Shown: positions 1 to 3,473 of the stretch, piece by piece
How positions within the stretch are numbered: position 1 is the first letter of the stretch
How the letters are laid out: the number at the start of each line of letters is the position of its first letter
DNA from: a virus
Virus record (IMG/VR): IMGVR_UViG_3300030107_002948
Coordinates: 1-25,180 of that record
DNA length: 25,180 nt
Strand: one strand, 5' to 3'
Made by a program: the position numbers and the translations under genes
The notes under the pieces: generated by a model
The model's database searches: none
What the model saw: the letters and a program-made list of their open reading frames with translations, nothing else
What the model was told of the DNA's origin: nothing

Positions 1-283
1 AGAATTGCTTCATTGCTCTAAGACGGCTAAGTCTATAACAGGGAATGAATGAGGCAAAAGGTGATACATAATGTTAGCTACACGTCGTTAATCAACTAAG
101 ATGGCCATCGACCGGTAAGGGATTGGTCAGCACTTGTTCAAGTCAGTTTGTTATTGCTTGTCGTCTGTTTGGCGAATGGTGTATTCTTGTCTGAATACTC
201 AGGTCACTAATCGTATACGATGTTATACGTCTATAACCATAAGTGAGAGAGTCGGGATTCGGCCCCTGAAACTCTCTCTGTAA
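1..283 (-). ncRNA. Candidate structured RNA, left-edge locus (possibly incomplete)
   Basis: This stretch has its own promoter of the local family (281-308, reading leftwards) but no convincing coding sequence. The inferred transcript begins at about 283 and opens at once with a hairpin: GAGAGAGT pairs with ACTCTCTC (8 bp), with GGG/CCC stacked inside. Farther along the minus strand come GTTATA-gacg-TATAAC, the palindrome ATCGTATACGAT, GTATTC-agacaa-GAATAC, ACTTG-aa-CAAGT and GATGGCCATC. Such a string of local hairpins is unusual for spacer DNA. I recognise no tRNA, rRNA or RNase P signature. The 3' end is not visible and may lie left of the window. The palindromes could alternatively mark a replication or protein-binding region. 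Confidence 0.4.
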
Positions 284-308
284 TACCAATAGGGAGGGTC
301 TATTTAAC
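281..308 (-). promoter_or_regulatory. Promoter of left-edge RNA locus
   Basis: Reading the minus strand, TATA-like TTAAATAG is followed by the family element CTATTGGTAT at the usual distance. The T/A-box variant TTAAATAG is shared only with the promoter of the second non-coding locus (1763-1792). The stop codon of the upstream 99-aa gene (300-302) lies within the TATA box. Confidence 0.6.
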
Positions 309-599
309 CCTTTCTCCGTATTTCTTGACGTCGTGGACGTAGACGTCTCCGTATTCCCAACTACCGTAGGTCATGGGACTTCTCACGGCACAATACCATC
401 TAGCATACATATTAGCTTTTTCCATATGTGGCATTTGGTATTTCTTTAATACTCTCCATTCAAAACCGTTACCCTTGTAAATCTCATATGGGTTATCAAC
501 CTTTACAGTTTTACCACATGGGTTTTTACCTCGGCCTGTTTTGTATTCTTCGTATTTCGTGCTTGGTGAATATTCACTCGACTCCTTGTATTCTGTCAT
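300..599 (-). CDS. Conserved-looking small viral protein (99 aa)
   Basis: A 99-aa polar, aromatic-rich protein. Its second half carries the runs EWRVLKKYQ, ARWYCAVRSP and YGSWEYGD, which resemble from memory a family of uncharacterised proteins in tailed phages; I cannot name a function and cannot confirm the match here. The ATG lies exactly where transcription should start below a CTTTATATAG box, so the mRNA is probably leaderless. A 20-bp inverted-repeat operator sits 3 nt upstream of the TATA box. The stop codon overlaps the TATA box of the next locus downstream. No membrane segment or metal-binding cluster is visible. Confidence 0.75.
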   Translation of the reverse strand: MTEYKESSEYSPSTKYEEYKTGRGKNPCGKTVKVDNPYEIYKGNGFEWRVLKKYQMPHMEKANMYARWYCAVRSPMTYGSWEYGDVYVHDVKKYGERVK

Positions 600-628
600 A
601 TTATACCAATAGTGAGGGTCTATATAAA
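600..628 (-). promoter_or_regulatory. Promoter of the 99-aa gene
   Basis: Minus-strand order: CTTTATATAGAC, then CTATTGGTATA directly before the ATG at 599. TATA centre to ATG is about 25 nt, as expected for an archaeal leaderless transcript. Confidence 0.75.
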
Positions 629-631
629 GAT

Positions 632-651
632 TTTTTCACCCGCGTGGAAAA
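632..651. promoter_or_regulatory. Operator-like inverted repeat, copy 1
   Basis: Plus-strand TTTTTCAC-CCGC-GTGGAAAA, an 8+4+8 dyad. It ends 3 nt from the TATA octamer at 621-628, over the position where the TFB recognition element (BRE) would lie. One of four copies in the window. Confidence 0.65.
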
Positions 652-653
652 GC

Positions 654-673
654 GGGGGGAGGCCCTACCCCCC
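654..673 (-). terminator. G/C hairpin after tiny-gene operon
   Basis: GGGGGG (654-659) pairs with CCCCCC (668-673) around an 8-nt loop, about 20 nt beyond the last stop of the three-gene operon at 695-1025. It could end that transcript. No U-run follows on the minus strand, so the terminator call is tentative. Confidence 0.35.
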
Positions 674-694
674 TAGAGGTTGAAAACAAACGAG

Positions 695-772
695 CTATTT
701 GGCCTTTTTGAGAATCTTATTTATTCTGATTTGCTCTTTCCATGAAACTCTGGGCTTCTCAGTGTAGCTCAT
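695..772 (-). CDS. Tiny hypothetical protein (25 aa), third of operon
   Basis: A 25-codon frame, basic (many Lys/Arg), whose ATG overlaps the previous stop as ATGA, the usual sign of translational coupling. It begins MSYTEKPRVSW and ends KKAK. No family is recognised. The support is the tidy chain of overlaps from 1025 to 695 rather than the sequence itself. A G/C hairpin follows. Confidence 0.45.
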   Translation of the reverse strand: MSYTEKPRVSWKEQIRINKILKKAK

Positions 773-885
773 AAGTTACACCCGCAACAGGGTGCATCTT
801 CACACCCGCACAGGACTATATAATCTCCTGCTTCCTCTATACCAGAGATGACCATGTCATCTAAAATATCTAGTATACTTTTCAC
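769..885 (-). CDS. Cys-rich miniprotein (38 aa), second of operon
   Basis: A 38-aa frame with a GTG start that overlaps the TGA of the upstream gene by four bases. The first half is a likely acidic amphipathic helix; the end has five cysteines (C26, C28, C33, C34, C36) in the pattern CGC-x4-CCGC, which could bind a metal or form disulfides. Its stop overlaps the ATG of the next frame. No known family. The double overlap and the Cys cluster argue that it is real despite the small size. Confidence 0.55.
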   Translation of the reverse strand: MKSILDILDDMVISGIEEAGDYIVLCGCEDAPCCGCNL

Positions 886-1025
886 TTTCTCACATCCTCA
901 GCAAGACCCAGACGTATAGCCATGAGTTGCTCATGGACTCCTAAGTCAATCTTGTTTTTGGTGATGGTTCTGCGTGGTGCTCGGCGGAAACGAAAGTCGT
1001 TTCTCATGTCTTGTATTTTTGTCAT
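882..1025 (-). CDS. Small basic protein (47 aa), first of operon
   Basis: A 47-aa Arg-rich protein with the central run FRFRRAPRRTITKNK followed by a likely helix (HEQLMAIRLGLAEDVRK). The ATG sits at the expected transcription start under a family promoter, so it is probably leaderless. It heads a chain of three overlapping tiny genes (882-1025, 769-885, 695-772). The charge suggests nucleic-acid contact, but I recognise no domain. Confidence 0.65.
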   Translation of the reverse strand: MTKIQDMRNDFRFRRAPRRTITKNKIDLGVHEQLMAIRLGLAEDVRK

Positions 1026-1053
1026 AGTATACCAATGAGTGTGCCTATATAAG
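1026..1053 (-). promoter_or_regulatory. Promoter of three-gene tiny operon
   Basis: GCTTATATAGGC followed by CATTGGTATAC directly before the ATG at 1025. No operator dyad lies upstream, because the coding end of the next gene (stop at 1056) begins immediately. Confidence 0.7.
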
Positions 1054-1055
1054 CT

Positions 1056-1208
1056 TTACTCCTCCAATCCTGCCGCGATATAAAAACGGTCCCAATCAAA
1101 ATATTGATTCTCACCGGCGCACATTCTGGCGAAGTCCCTTATTAGCAGAGGGTCTGCTTTTCTCTCTCGGAGAATACTAGCTATCTTTCTAAAATGTTTT
1201 CTAGTCAT
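1056..1208 (-). CDS. Small phage-type hypothetical protein (50 aa)
   Basis: A 50-aa protein beginning MTRKHFRKIASIL and ending with YFDWDRFYIAAGL. The layout (basic KHF-x2-IA-x-IL start, a middle helix ending ARMCAGEN, then the FD-x2-RF-x-AAGL ending) matches, from memory, a short protein common in tailed phages (N-x-FD-x2-RF-x3-G type) of unknown role. I chose the ATG at 1208 rather than an upstream in-frame codon because a family promoter places transcription start at this ATG; a longer version would include the TATA box and operator in coding sequence. Confidence 0.7.
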   Translation of the reverse strand: MTRKHFRKIASILRERKADPLLIRDFARMCAGENQYFDWDRFYIAAGLEE

Positions 1209-1237
1209 ACTATACCAACGGGTGTGCCTATATAAAG
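1209..1237 (-). promoter_or_regulatory. Promoter of 50-aa gene
   Basis: CTTTATATAGGC followed by CGTTGGTATAGT and the ATG at 1208. The operator dyad at 1240-1259 is 3 nt upstream of the TATA octamer. Confidence 0.75.
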
Positions 1238-1239
1238 GT

Positions 1240-1259
1240 TTTTCCACCCGTGTGGAAAA
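1240..1259. promoter_or_regulatory. Operator-like inverted repeat, copy 2 (perfect dyad)
   Basis: TTTTCCAC-CCGT-GTGGAAAA: both 8-bp half-sites are perfectly complementary. The other three copies have one mismatch in the left half. Spacing to the TATA octamer (1229-1236) is 3 nt. Confidence 0.7.
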
Positions 1260-1279
1260 GCTGGCGCCCACCTGCCCCA

Positions 1280-1293
1280 CCACCTAGGGGTGG
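1280..1293 (-). terminator. Hairpin at the end of structured RNA locus
   Basis: CCACC (1280-1284) pairs with GGTGG (1289-1293) around a TAGG loop. It lies between the structured locus and the operator/promoter of the next gene, so it is a candidate 3' boundary. No U-run follows. Confidence 0.3.
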
Positions 1294-1676
1294 CCGACTC
1301 AGTGGGCTGGGGTTGCGTCGCTACGTTTAACGCTCGGGCGGGCTTATGTCACTGGCCCTTCGCCATCACTTGTCAGGCGACCCCTATTGTCCCCATGCTG
1401 GACAGTTTATTAGACTGACTCATACACCTGCCTCTTCCAAAAGGTGCGCCTACTCCTTGGGCTGACCATCTTACGGTGTTGGGGACTCATGGAACATAAG
1501 TGGATTAGTCGGTCTCGAGTTCGACTAATCCGGCGGATGTCTCAGAGTATAAGAACATCCTTTTAACTTAACTCTTGGGGTAGGGTTGCAATATTATTTT
1601 GCTATTATCATCTTTTTAGGTCGAGAGGCAGTCGATAGCCTCTCACTTCCCCTACCCGTTAGAGGTGTTTACATGT

Positions 1677-1748
1677 TTATCCTAGTTTTCTTGTTGCGTA
1701 TGATACGTTAACCATGTGACTGATTAACCATTTTTGATAGTTGTTCAT
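1677..1748 (-). CDS. Leader peptide of structured RNA locus (23 aa)
   Basis: A 23-codon frame starting at 1748 with a strong SD (AGGAGG, about 8 nt upstream) in an otherwise non-coding transcript. The peptide begins MNNYQKWLISHMV and ends ATRKLG. It lies directly before the first large stem of the structured region. It may be a true miniprotein or a leader peptide whose translation influences RNA folding. The SD is the main evidence; the peptide has no recognisable family. Confidence 0.5.
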   Translation of the reverse strand: MNNYQKWLISHMVNVSYATRKLG

Positions 1749-1762
1749 AGTTGTTTTCCTCC

Positions 1763-1792
1763 TGTAATACCAATAGAGAGTCCCTATTTAAG
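1763..1792 (-). promoter_or_regulatory. Promoter of structured RNA locus
   Basis: CTTAAATAGGG followed by CTATTGGTATTACAGGAGG. Same box variant (TTAAATAG) as the promoter at 281-308. The stop codon of the preceding 29-aa frame (1784-1786) lies inside the TATA box, the same arrangement as at 300-302. Confidence 0.65.
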
Positions 1793-1873
1793 GATTGCCC
1801 TCAACTGTCGGACCATGGTCCAAGTGTTGTCTGTCATCCTTTTTGGGCTTCCGCCGGTTTTCATTTTACTCAT
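1784..1873 (-). CDS. Tiny basic protein (29 aa)
   Basis: A 29-aa frame beginning MSKMKTGGSPKRM and rich in Lys/Arg. Its ATG at 1873 lies at the predicted transcription start of a complete family promoter that also carries an operator dyad, which is the strongest reason to believe it. The stop codon overlaps the TATA box of the structured RNA locus downstream. No family is recognised. Confidence 0.55.
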   Translation of the reverse strand: MSKMKTGGSPKRMTDNTWTMVRQLRAILK

Positions 1874-1903
1874 AATATACCAATAGCAGGTGTCTATATA
1901 AAG
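1874..1903 (-). promoter_or_regulatory. Promoter of 29-aa gene
   Basis: CTTTATATAGAC followed by CTATTGGTATATT and the ATG at 1873; operator copy 3 begins 3 nt upstream of the TATA octamer. Confidence 0.7.
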
Positions 1904-1905
1904 AT

Positions 1906-1925
1906 TTTTTCACTCGCGTGGAAAA
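1906..1925. promoter_or_regulatory. Operator-like inverted repeat, copy 3
   Basis: TTTTTCAC-TCGC-GTGGAAAA, same 8+4+8 layout and the same 3-nt spacing to the TATA octamer (1895-1902) as copies 1 and 2. Confidence 0.65.
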
Positions 1926-1928
1926 GTC

Positions 1929-2093
1929 CTACTTGAGCTGGCTTCCTTTGAAACCAGCCCACACGTGACCCTTATCCCAAATATATTTACTACCACCTGT
2001 AGCAGGGTCATAGACTAACCAATAGTTATTACCTCTGGCGTCTGTTCCTTTATTAATTATTTTATATCCGTCTTTGGTGTTTCTCTTTCTCAT
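1929..2093 (-). CDS. Small hypothetical protein (54 aa)
   Basis: A 54-aa protein with a basic start (MRKRNTKDGYK) and a Gly/aromatic-rich body (NNYWLVYDPATGG, KYIWDKGHVWAGF), suggesting a small beta fold. I recognise no family. The ATG lies at the transcription start expected from the promoter at 2094-2122, so it is probably leaderless. The stop codon (1929-1931) comes 3 nt from operator copy 3, so the next gene's control region begins at once. Confidence 0.65.
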   Translation of the reverse strand: MRKRNTKDGYKIINKGTDARGNNYWLVYDPATGGSKYIWDKGHVWAGFKGSQLK

Positions 2094-2122
2094 GGATTAC
2101 CAATAGGGAGTCTCTATATAAG
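2094..2122 (-). promoter_or_regulatory. Promoter of 54-aa gene
   Basis: GCTTATATAGAG followed by CTATTGGTAATCC and the ATG at 2093. No operator dyad upstream; the stop of the 25-aa membrane peptide (2135-2137) is close by. Confidence 0.7.
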
Positions 2123-2134
2123 CTTTTCTGTGTC

Positions 2135-2212
2135 TCATAAGTCAAATGCCTCCATTAGTGAATAAAACCAAATTGTCATGAATAAAGCTGATAGAATTAT
2201 TATTTCAATCAT
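2135..2212 (-). CDS. Single-helix membrane miniprotein (25 aa)
   Basis: A 25-aa frame that is almost wholly one hydrophobic helix (IEIIILSALFMTIWFYSLM) with a short acidic end. Its ATG directly abuts the stop of the zinc-ribbon gene upstream (TAA-ATG), so the two are probably translated together. The size and hydrophobicity fit a small membrane peptide, for example a regulator of a host membrane protein or a holin-like peptide, but neither can be assigned from sequence. Confidence 0.55.
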   Translation of the reverse strand: MIEIIILSALFMTIWFYSLMEAFDL

Positions 2213-2332
2213 TTATTCATCACCTGTCCAAAATGTCATAAACATTTGTGAATCACAATCTTCACATAGTCCGCCGAATAGTTCGGCAAATTCTAGGCCA
2301 CAGTCTTCGCAAGTTATTTCGTTTCTGTTCAT
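2213..2332 (-). CDS. Zinc-ribbon miniprotein (39 aa)
   Basis: A 39-aa acidic protein with two CEDC knuckles (C8/C11 and C23/C26), the four-cysteine pattern of a zinc ribbon. The ATG at 2332 has an SD (GAGGT, 5-nt spacing), so this transcript has a short leader instead of being leaderless. Two promoters lie upstream, a proximal one at 2340-2375 and a distal conserved block at 2387-2462. It is followed without a gap by a membrane miniprotein gene. Small zinc ribbons in viruses often bind nucleic acid or transcription factors; the target here is unknown. Confidence 0.65.
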   Translation of the reverse strand: MNRNEITCEDCGLEFAELFGGLCEDCDSQMFMTFWTGDE

Positions 2333-2339
2333 ATTTTAC

Positions 2340-2375
2340 CTCTATAATACCTATAGCGGGGGATGATATATTAGT
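2340..2375 (-). promoter_or_regulatory. Proximal promoter of zinc-ribbon gene
   Basis: CTAATATATC followed by CTATAGGTATTATAG, a diverged form of the family CTATTGGTAT element, then SD and ATG. Confidence 0.5.
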
Positions 2376-2386
2376 TTGGTTGGGTC

Positions 2387-2462
2387 CTATCGTCGTGAAC
2401 CTCAAAATCCTAAATAGGGGTATATAAAGGAATAAATCCCGCTCGCATTTTTTGGGGCGCGC
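2387..2462 (-). promoter_or_regulatory. Distal promoter block, copy A
   Basis: On the minus strand: GCGCGCCCCAAAAAA (2448-2462), a TATA box CTTTATATACCCC (about 2417-2429), then CGACGATAG (2387-2395) at start-site distance. The same three elements in the same order recur at 3529-3606 before the GIY-YIG-like gene, so this is a second promoter type distinct from the TTGGTAT family. Confidence 0.55.
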
Positions 2463-2467
2463 TGCTT

Positions 2468-2487
2468 TTTTTCACACGCGTGGAAAA
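2468..2487. promoter_or_regulatory. Operator-like inverted repeat, copy 4
   Basis: TTTTTCAC-ACGC-GTGGAAAA. Unlike copies 1-3 it is not 3 nt from a TATA box. It lies upstream of the distal promoter block on the minus strand and, on the plus strand, about 14 nt before a TTTATATA inside the hairpin at 2495-2516. Confidence 0.6.
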
Positions 2488-2494
2488 GTTTTTT

Positions 2495-2516
2495 GAGGGG
2501 GTTTATATACCCCCTC
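2495..2516. repeat. Inverted repeat with TATA-like loop
   Basis: GAGGGGG (2495-2501) and CCCCCTC (2510-2516) flank TTTATATA. It lies beyond the stop of the 46-aa gene on the minus strand, so it could be its terminator; the TATA-like loop could also be a control site. Confidence 0.4.
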
Positions 2517-2540
2517 GGATGGCGAATGGGCTATATATAC

Positions 2541-2681
2541 TTATAGCTGGTCGTGGATTTGGTCGACTATATCGTGTAATATATCCAACATATAACCACG
2601 AGTCAAAACACCATCATGGCCGTAGCGATTTTTTTGCATCTGGCCGATGTCGTATTTATCTAACTCTATCGTTAATTTCAT
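2541..2681 (-). CDS. Small hypothetical protein (46 aa)
   Basis: A 46-aa protein starting MKLTIELDKYDIG with a likely helical end (MLDILHDIVDQIHDQL). The ATG overlaps the stop of the 79-aa gene upstream by four bases (ATGA) and has an SD-like GGAGGT about 6 nt before it, so it is the last gene of the 2541-3098 operon. The helix has the heptad-like hydrophobic spacing of a dimerisation helix. No family is recognised. Confidence 0.6.
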   Translation of the reverse strand: MKLTIELDKYDIGQMQKNRYGHDGVLTRGYMLDILHDIVDQIHDQL

Positions 2682-2917
2682 TTTTTTACCTCCTTCATTA
2701 TTTCTGCGTATTCCTGAATTTCTTTTAAAACGTATTTTGCAAATTCATTCCACTCTCTTTTATTTCTGCAATCCTTTGCGAGTTCATCCCAAATTTTATA
2801 ATTGCTTGAAACATTCCATTCCCAAATATTTGCTTGGGCTCTTCTTTGTTCTTCTGAAAAAGCAGGTGCATTTTCTGCTTCTTCGAACATTCTTTTAAAG
2901 TTGCTTTTTGAAGTCAT
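2678..2917 (-). CDS. Small helical hypothetical protein (79 aa)
   Basis: A 79-aa, mostly helical, charged protein. Notable runs are FEEAENAPAFSEEQRRAQ near the start and YVLKEIQEYAEIMKEVKK at the end. I chose the ATG at 2917 because a strong SD (GGGAGGT, 8-nt spacing) lies before it; the frame is open farther upstream but that part runs through the neighbouring zinc-ribbon gene. It is the middle gene of a three-gene operon, with a 13-nt gap upstream and a 4-nt overlap downstream. No domain is recognised. Confidence 0.7.
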   Translation of the reverse strand: MTSKSNFKRMFEEAENAPAFSEEQRRAQANIWEWNVSSNYKIWDELAKDCRNKREWNEFAKYVLKEIQEYAEIMKEVKK

Positions 2918-2930
2918 AATTATACCTCCC

Positions 2931-3098
2931 TTAGTAAGGGCAGTCCCCCATTTCGTAATAACAGTCACTGCATACCCTGTAGCCTCTGGCCCTCTGGGTT
3001 TGGACTGCTTCATTACAGCACTCGCACATATCCTCTAGGAGGTCGTTAGCTGACTCGGATTCTTCGAATCCCATTCTGATTAGTTCGTTTGTATTCAT
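2931..3098 (-). CDS. Zinc-ribbon-like small protein (55 aa)
   Basis: A 55-aa acidic protein with CECC (C25, C27, C28) and CSDC (C43, C46) knuckles plus a late cysteine (C53), consistent with a zinc-binding fold. The ATG at 3098 has an SD (AGAGGAAA) and a TATA box about 35-45 nt upstream, so it has a short leader. The frame is open farther upstream, but that would place the promoter in coding sequence. It heads the operon 3098-2541. The role is unknown; adaptor or nucleic-acid binding is plausible. Confidence 0.7.
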   Translation of the reverse strand: MNTNELIRMGFEESESANDLLEDMCECCNEAVQTQRARGYRVCSDCYYEMGDCPY

Positions 3099-3111
3099 GT
3101 TTATTTCCTCT

Positions 3112-3141
3112 GTATTACACATAGCAAGCCTCTTTATAAGC
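3112..3141 (-). promoter_or_regulatory. Promoter of zinc-ribbon/helical operon
   Basis: GCTTATAAAGAGG followed by CTATGTGTAATACAGAGG. The CTATNNGTAAT part aligns with the family CTATTGGTAT element; an SD and ATG follow. Confidence 0.6.
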
Positions 3142-3152
3142 TTTTCCCTCAA

Positions 3153-3168
3153 GGGGGCTTATGCCCCC
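3153..3168 (-). terminator. Hairpin overlapping the GIY-YIG gene stop
   Basis: GGGGGC (3153-3158) pairs with GCCCCC (3163-3168) around a 4-nt loop that contains the stop codon of the 104-aa gene. It may end or stabilise that mRNA; no U-run follows. Confidence 0.35.
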
Positions 3169-3473
3169 CTGTGGCCGGTGTTGGCCATGCCTTGGCATTC
3201 TGGCTCGGTGCCGTATGCCCTATAGTGTTGAGCTACTAGGGATGCCTCATGTTCTAAAGCTTCCCATGGATTGTCAAACTCAGCTATAACTATTAAGCTG
3301 ATGTCATGACCTTTTTTAGGTCGGTGTTTGGATAGTCTACTTTGTGGGTCTTGAGTTAGACCATAGTAAACGGCTCCCTTGTTTATGCCGTCGCCCATTA
3401 CGACGTCATAATGATGATAGCTAGTCTTTTCTGACTGTCTGGCTAATTTGTAGATGTAATATTTTTCGTTCAT
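3159..3473 (-). CDS. GIY-YIG-like nuclease, single domain (104 aa)
   Basis: A 104-aa protein with the marks of the GIY-YIG nuclease fold: YIYKL (6-10, GIY strand), VYYGLT (35-40, YIG strand), R46 in SRLSKHR, a glutamate-bearing helix EALEHEASLV (71-80) supplying the likely metal ligand, and a late N-x-G element (98-100). The insertion between the two strand motifs (about 25 residues) is longer than usual. No DNA-binding module is attached, so it could be a stand-alone endonuclease, a homing-type remnant or a DNA-processing enzyme. SD AGAGG precedes the ATG at 3473. Two promoters lie upstream (3485-3516 and 3529-3606). Confidence 0.65.
   Translation of the reverse strand: MNEKYYIYKLARQSEKTSYHHYDVVMGDGINKGAVYYGLTQDPQSRLSKHRPKKGHDISLIVIAEFDNPWEALEHEASLVAQHYRAYGTEPECQGMANTGHRGA

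Follow-up and report, generated by a model that had tools for sequence, protein, structure and literature searches.

Introduction

Virus-encoded structured RNAs are exemplified by ROOL (659 nt) and GOLLD (>800 nt) of phages and prophages (PMC12286853). The manA RNA (RF01745), known from marine metagenomes, gamma-proteobacteria and cyanophages, has been placed among the candidate riboswitches with a cis-regulatory role (PMC2864571). Noncoding RNAs can also be structured by the protein L7Ae (PMC7994747, PMC5539422), which binds the kink-loop motif (PMC7994747); the D'/C' boxes read CUGA and RUGAUGA (PMC5539422). Among open-licence papers, none was found that describes structured RNAs in the viruses considered here, or an RNA of this kind in any archaeal virus, and the words noncoding, tRNA and intergenic are not used in a 2023 magrovirus survey.

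The DNA analyzed in this work is a stand-alone 25-kb virus record (IMGVR_UViG_3300030107_002948, 25,180 nt), hereafter referred to as the window. A sequence-only reading had proposed a large structured RNA of an archaeal virus at positions 1280-1766. Judged by comparison with homologous loci, the existence of a viral structured RNA on the minus strand is near certain, and its conserved element of ~240 nt (domain of ~200-250 nt; 252 nt in the window) is further called the core.

Homologues of the core

The first four homologues were reached via terminase relatives in IMG/VR, and the set was enlarged to 36 virus records by three exact-motif scans, one relaxed scan, one protein scan and one scan for the divergent clade. 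These records hold 31 distinct core sequences of two related types, with one copy per record; a second match in one of them (G031, E 0.004) lies on the strand opposite to that record's RNA and overlaps it. Both the core RNA and manA are missing from one 63-kb relative (L033/G019), and blastn gave no match in named phages. A number of further candidates (L086, L099-L103, L105-L110, L113-L118) were judged to be chance pattern matches. The sole type I motif match in 84,980 prokaryote genomes was rejected as a cellular copy and put down to chance, because it falls within a protein-coding gene of a Puniceispirillum MAG.

Organization and strand of the locus

The locus is composite and comprises, in the 5'-to-3' direction on the minus strand, a promoter, a leader with AGGAGG, a 23-codon ORF, module B, two private hairpins and the core (Table 1). 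The promoter (TTAAATA..TATTGGTATT) is of the virus's own type, as had been claimed from the sequence. Markov-resampled sequence would be expected to contain 0.29 sites of this type, whereas the window has six, every one of them on the minus strand; since this promoter and its five counterparts all point leftward, the RNA was assigned to the minus strand, the sequence-only reading having named no strand. At the other five promoters ATG follows 2 nt past the motif, whereas here it appears only after a 17-nt leader. The downstream genes in the window have promoters of their own, and positions 300-3473 (minus strand) hold clustered leftward genes of very small size, many of which have their own leaderless TATA promoter; the cluster is mostly common to the relatives.

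TABLE 1. Coordinates of the locus features in the window.
Feature	Position	Strand	Remarks
TATA-type promoter and initiator (CTTAAATAGGGACTCTCTATTGGTATT)	1766..1792	-	Predicted to drive the RNA transcript; one of six sites, all minus
23-codon ORF MNNYQKWLISHMVNVSYATRKLG	1677..1748	-	Conserved; both RNA types are preceded by homologous peptides, e.g., MNKYQSSLLTWLVGISYATRKL
Module B	1578..1657	-	Variable closing stem GGGTAGGG/CCCTACCC (1657-1650 with 1585-1578) around conserved GATGAAAATAGCAAAATAGTATTGCA; inner hairpin 1646-1623; 20 distinct copies in relatives
Hairpin GGATGT..ACATCC	1535..1560	-	Homologue not detected
10-bp hairpin GGATTAGTCG/CGACTAATCC	1502..1531	-	Without homologue in fetched relatives
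Conserved RNA core (type I)	1253..1504	-	End-to-end match by covariance model R1
PK1	1435..1494	-	UUCCA 1494-1490 with UGGAA 1439-1435 (P3 loop); 17/17 paired
P1	1486-1481/1394-1389	-	Encloses P2, P2b, P3, P4 (domain 1389..1486)
P2	1479-1475/1428-1424	-	Within P1
P2b	1468-1460/1450-1445	-	Within P1
P3	1444-1442/1433-1431	-	Within P1
P4	1417-1414/1406-1403	-	Within P1; loop CUAAUAA
P5	1384-1380/1313-1309	-	Closes four-way junction with P6, P7, P8 (1309..1384); common to types I and II
P6 hairpin	1361..1379	-	Kink-loop consensus CUGA-CAAG-UGAUG; 17/17 type I; sole such motif in the window
P7	1358-1355/1339-1336	-	In four-way junction
PK2	1274..1343	-	P7 loop GCCC 1343-1340 with P9-internal GGGC 1277-1274; 14/14 paired
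P8	1333-1329/1319-1315	-	In four-way junction
P9, 3'-end hairpin	1307-1301/1272-1266 (1266..1307)	-	Type I model
Promoter of the next gene	1211..1236	-	Independent, immediately 3' of the core; leaderless

The GC content is indeed raised, being 0.58 at 1251-1500 versus 0.33-0.46 in the flanks. Against shuffles, the minus strand folds with an MFE z of -2.9 versus -1.6 for the plus strand; such values by themselves do not prove a structure, the proof being supplied by compensatory changes in relatives. An RNA of the plus strand, with its weaker fold and no promoter, was rejected. The reported near-absence of coding capacity held for positions 1253-1680, where the longest open run measures 43 codons (minus strand) or 54 codons (plus strand), but not for the 5' end of the locus with its conserved 23-codon ORF. 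Since core lengths differ by non-multiples of three, a coding role of the core is argued against.

Both stems named in the sequence-only reading are exact on the minus strand. The 10-bp hairpin seems private to this virus, because an exact search with it returned zero matches, and the 8-bp stem closes module B, a separate small module. The core reaches ~27 nt beyond the lower boundary of the originally proposed extent.

Conserved fold of the type I and type II RNAs

For type I, RNAalifold applied to an unfitted MAFFT alignment of 15 sequences gave 49 pairs, 22 of them compensatory. In the alignment of 17 type I sequences (window included), which was fitted to the model and hence favours the structure, with the unfitted MAFFT alignment and type II as counterweight, 98.6% of base-pair cells pair and double-sided changes occur at 31 of the 49 pairs; none of 500 shuffles reached any of the measures, and slid controls gave 34-45%. 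Model R1 scored L104 at 85 bits and L111 at 80 bits, neither of which had been used in building it. Comparative analysis shows a core with a P1-P4 domain, a P5-P8 four-way junction, the 3' hairpin P9 and, in type I, two pseudoknots.

The two pseudoknots lie outside the nested model and are 100% paired and covarying, with slid controls far lower, in the same alignment on which they had been selected by eye or by a covariation scan. PK1 occurs as UUCCA/UGGAA, UUCCG/CGGAA, UUCCU/AGGAA and, in L104, CUACU/AGUAG; its variable position (UUCCN with N'GGAA) is A-U in ten sequences, G-C in five and U-A in two. PK2 occurs as GCCC/GGGC, GUCC/GGAC, GACC/GGUC and GUCU/AGAC, and is the weaker of the two because only 14 sequences and two variable pairs support it.

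The type II RNAs (13 distinct sequences) are devoid of P1-P3, and their P7 arm is extended and in most cases branched. RNAalifold predicted 48 pairs for them, 30 compensatory, with 96.4% of cells pairing and none of 500 shuffles reaching this; by sequence comparison, type II is an independent case of a covarying fold. Models R1 and R2 each recover members of the opposite type. R2, for which only type II sequences were used, picks up the majority of type I RNAs at the homologous position (in the window at 1425-1307 with 24.8 bits and E 8e-5; in L092 with 32.9 bits), and it scores at 86 bits the intermediate sequence L151, which bridges the types. On these grounds both types share P4 with its UAAUA-like loop, P5, P6, P8 and the base of P7.

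Compensatory changes thus exceed both shuffled and slid controls, and the plentiful covariation across homologous loci bears out the structured RNA proposed for a virus with archaeal-type promoters. None of the outcomes that would have spoken against it (a frameshifted coding gene, a known family, absent covariation) occurred.

The same hairpins could in principle act in single-stranded DNA, as a replication origin, a packaging or a recombination site. Such an element would fit the single copy per genome, the conserved position near a strand-switch region and the exchange of modules between genomes. Yet the locus is strand-asymmetric: the antisense alignments fold worse in all three cases (-43.5 versus -51.7, -28.9 versus -33.1 and -18.0 versus -42.8 kcal/mol), and G.U pairs are conserved, for instance at one P7-arm pair in 13/13 type II sequences and at two P2b pairs in 9/16 type I sequences. 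As these would become A.C mismatches on the other strand, they favour the minus strand. Considering also the linkage of the core to promoters and known RNA families, we regard a DNA-level element as improbable.

Elements adjoining the core

One or two mini-ORFs precede the core in nearly all loci with enough sequence. They belong to at least three mutually unrelated families, which recur with both RNA types and include the motifs MxxYQ...ATRKL and MKLTxIQKLWxKIGR. The closing stems of module B differ among its 20 copies in relatives yet stay complementary, and module C (TTTCAGGGGCCGAATCCCGA) likewise occurs with many different closing stems. The interior of module B (window 1612-1587, minus strand) is fixed, while the module takes several positions relative to the core and is present twice in one locus (L093). 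At window positions 1-292 (minus strand) there is a probable second noncoding RNA, with an initiator TATTGGTATTACAG near 291-278 and a module C hairpin at 278-245, followed by ~200 nt of 87-92% identity in L043 and L031; it has no 50-codon ORF and runs off the window.

The manA RNA was detected at E ≤ 0.001 in 16 of the 28 records examined, in 10 of them above the curated cut-off. It is co-oriented with the core and ends 58-114 nt 5' of it in seven type II records; in L111 it begins 22 nt 3' of the core on the same strand. The window itself gave no manA match, and in relatives manA lies apart from the core. The positions include 10625-10796 in L093, 7916-8087 in L111, 3828-4013 in L147 and 3900-4080 in L153. 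As far as seen, manA in these probable archaeal viruses adjoins small unknown ORFs and not sugar genes; such viruses may be the source of some of the manA copies in marine metagenomes. A tRNA-Glu(UUC) gene follows the type II core on the same strand 12, 16 and ~100 nt downstream in L167 (1088-1013), L147 (3501-3426) and L172 (4672-4597), respectively; these three type II records are the only ones with a tRNA next to the core, and the window has none. By analogy, the locus is an RNA island with a layout comparable to that of the tRNA islands with ROOL and GOLLD (PMC12286853).

The neighbourhood bears on two cis-acting alternatives. Instead of being a free-standing RNA, the core might be a 3' UTR element that stabilizes or regulates the mini-ORF mRNA, consistent with its place after mini-ORFs, homologous ones accompanying both RNA types, and with the AGGAGG-containing leader in the window, where ATG stands 17 nt past the promoter motif. 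On the other hand, the upstream ORFs are of unrelated families, several type II records have a complete manA RNA and further modules in between, and a multi-pseudoknot fold of ~240 nt exceeds the needs of mRNA protection; we consider a 3' UTR element possible, with perhaps one chance in four. Alternatively, the core could be a 5' leader or riboswitch of the downstream gene, as the classification of its frequent neighbour manA might suggest (PMC2864571). This is argued against by the independent promoters of downstream genes, the nearest being leaderless and immediately 3' of the core in the window, by TATA sequences that lie within 61 nt past the core at over half of the 31 loci, and by the variable downstream content (manA in L111, tRNA-Glu in L147 and L167), which together make a leader role very improbable.

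The virus and its host

The window encodes a terminase, a portal, an HK97-type capsid protein and a PD-(D/E)XK nuclease, and DNA polymerase B is present in 10 of 10 large relatives (50-72 kb); the combination of PolB and tailed-virus structural genes that marks magroviruses is thus found between the window and its relatives. The terminase is closest to that of Halogranum tailed virus 1 (24% identity), and the one PolB tested (L085/G003) is nearest to solved archaeal PolBs. Both TATA promoters and leaderless genes are characteristic of archaea. Among archaeal markers, thermosome and MCM were sought and are absent, the ERCC4-type nuclease (PF02732) was found in none of the 10 large relatives, for which the Pfam model is perhaps too strict, and the annotated phage collection contains no close relatives. 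The archaeal tailed virus of the sequence-only reading is retained with an archaeal host that is deduced from the promoters, the archaeal-like PolB and the nearest terminase: the virus is marine, probably with an archaeal host, and likely a magrovirus, i.e., a virus of Poseidoniales. The relative L085/G003 also carries a squalene/phytoene synthase-like gene (L182 6949-7551), possibly a viral gene of lipid metabolism.

The kink-loop and the proposed role of the RNA

In all 17 type I sequences P6 carries the helix-closed loop CUGA-CAAG-UGAWG, which follows the D'/C' kink-loop pattern. Chance expectation for such a loop with a 4-bp helix is 0.05 per 25 kb, and it was observed once in the window. 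In L111 the P6 stem is changed with compensation while the loop is kept; the pattern is also present in L151 and in L125, the latter being altered only at position 3b. The consensus is not followed by the P6 loops of 11 of the 13 type II sequences, which have A for the first G of the C' box (GAAUG, C' side), so that L7Ae binding may not be general. The Kt-23 precedent for an A in the kink-turn (position 2n, PMC3985660) proved inapplicable, as the type II change is on the C' strand (1b). Since the kink-loop was noticed after the fact, L7Ae binding is put forward as a hypothesis only.

The explanation that we prefer, if by a narrow lead over even chances, is a trans-acting viral noncoding RNA serving as a ribonucleoprotein scaffold. 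A short transcript starting at the TATA promoter would carry a mini-ORF first and the core as its 3' portion; the core, often in a row with further RNA modules of the virus (module B, module C, manA, sometimes tRNA-Glu), would act in trans; the P6 kink-loop could bind the abundant host L7Ae, keeping the RNA folded and protected, and the conserved loops might contact a putative partner during infection. That the mini-ORF families vary while the RNA is constant speaks for a trans-acting RNA, and the constant place after a mini-ORF is equally expected of a 3' UTR element. More speculatively, and at about the odds given above to the 3' UTR element, the whole RNA island (a manA-type domain, exchangeable hairpin modules, the core and in some cases tRNA-Glu) may combine with the L7Ae of the host to form a dedicated ribonucleoprotein of the virus; if so, manA would here be a trans-acting viral RNA domain and not a sugar-gene riboswitch.

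Because the fold is kept in 31 divergent sequences as a single copy per genome, it presumably has an important role in infection, the hosts being ocean archaea that are probably very abundant. Its function can be tested directly by way of the consensus, the two pseudoknots and the kink-loop.

Comparison with known RNA families

The core matched no Rfam family at gathering thresholds, nor even at E ≤ 5 (Rfam 15, window 1000-2000), and a type II locus matched none at E ≤ 1. The search itself works, since it detected manA and tRNA in core-bearing loci. A diverged member of a described family might be suspected, given that phage GOLLD and ROOL are likewise virus-encoded and structured, and are located near tRNAs (PMC12286853); in view of these searches we consider it highly improbable.

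Compared to archaeal C/D box sRNAs, type I P6 shares the D'/C'-like CUGA-N4-UGAWG kink-loop, but the core has no paired C/D motif with guide regions, and its kink-loop is placed inside a four-way junction. A terminal C/D kink-turn with 10-12-nt guides was not found, P6 being flanked by P5 and P7, and there is no Rfam C/D match. The manA RNA is likewise a marine viral RNA and about as long as the core; most of these viruses carry it in the same orientation, in some cases next to the core. The manA model misses the core, just as R1 and R2 miss manA; the linkage of the two RNAs opens a new approach to a riboswitch candidate that dates from 2010.

The likeness to GOLLD and ROOL drawn in the earlier reading holds in that these RNAs, too, are virus-encoded, elaborate and pseudoknotted (PMC12286853); they are often near tRNAs, while a tRNA adjoins the core in the three type II records only. 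It does not hold in size, the core of ~240 nt being much smaller than either. Neither covariance model matched it, and GOLLD is in addition distinguished by its length of >800 nt with a conserved 3' domain, as against 252 nt in the window. We therefore rate the core as a new family within the known kind of virus-encoded structured noncoding RNAs, set apart from ROOL and GOLLD by its archaeal-type promoter, mini-ORF leader and kink-loop, with a P1-P9 architecture that was derived independently.
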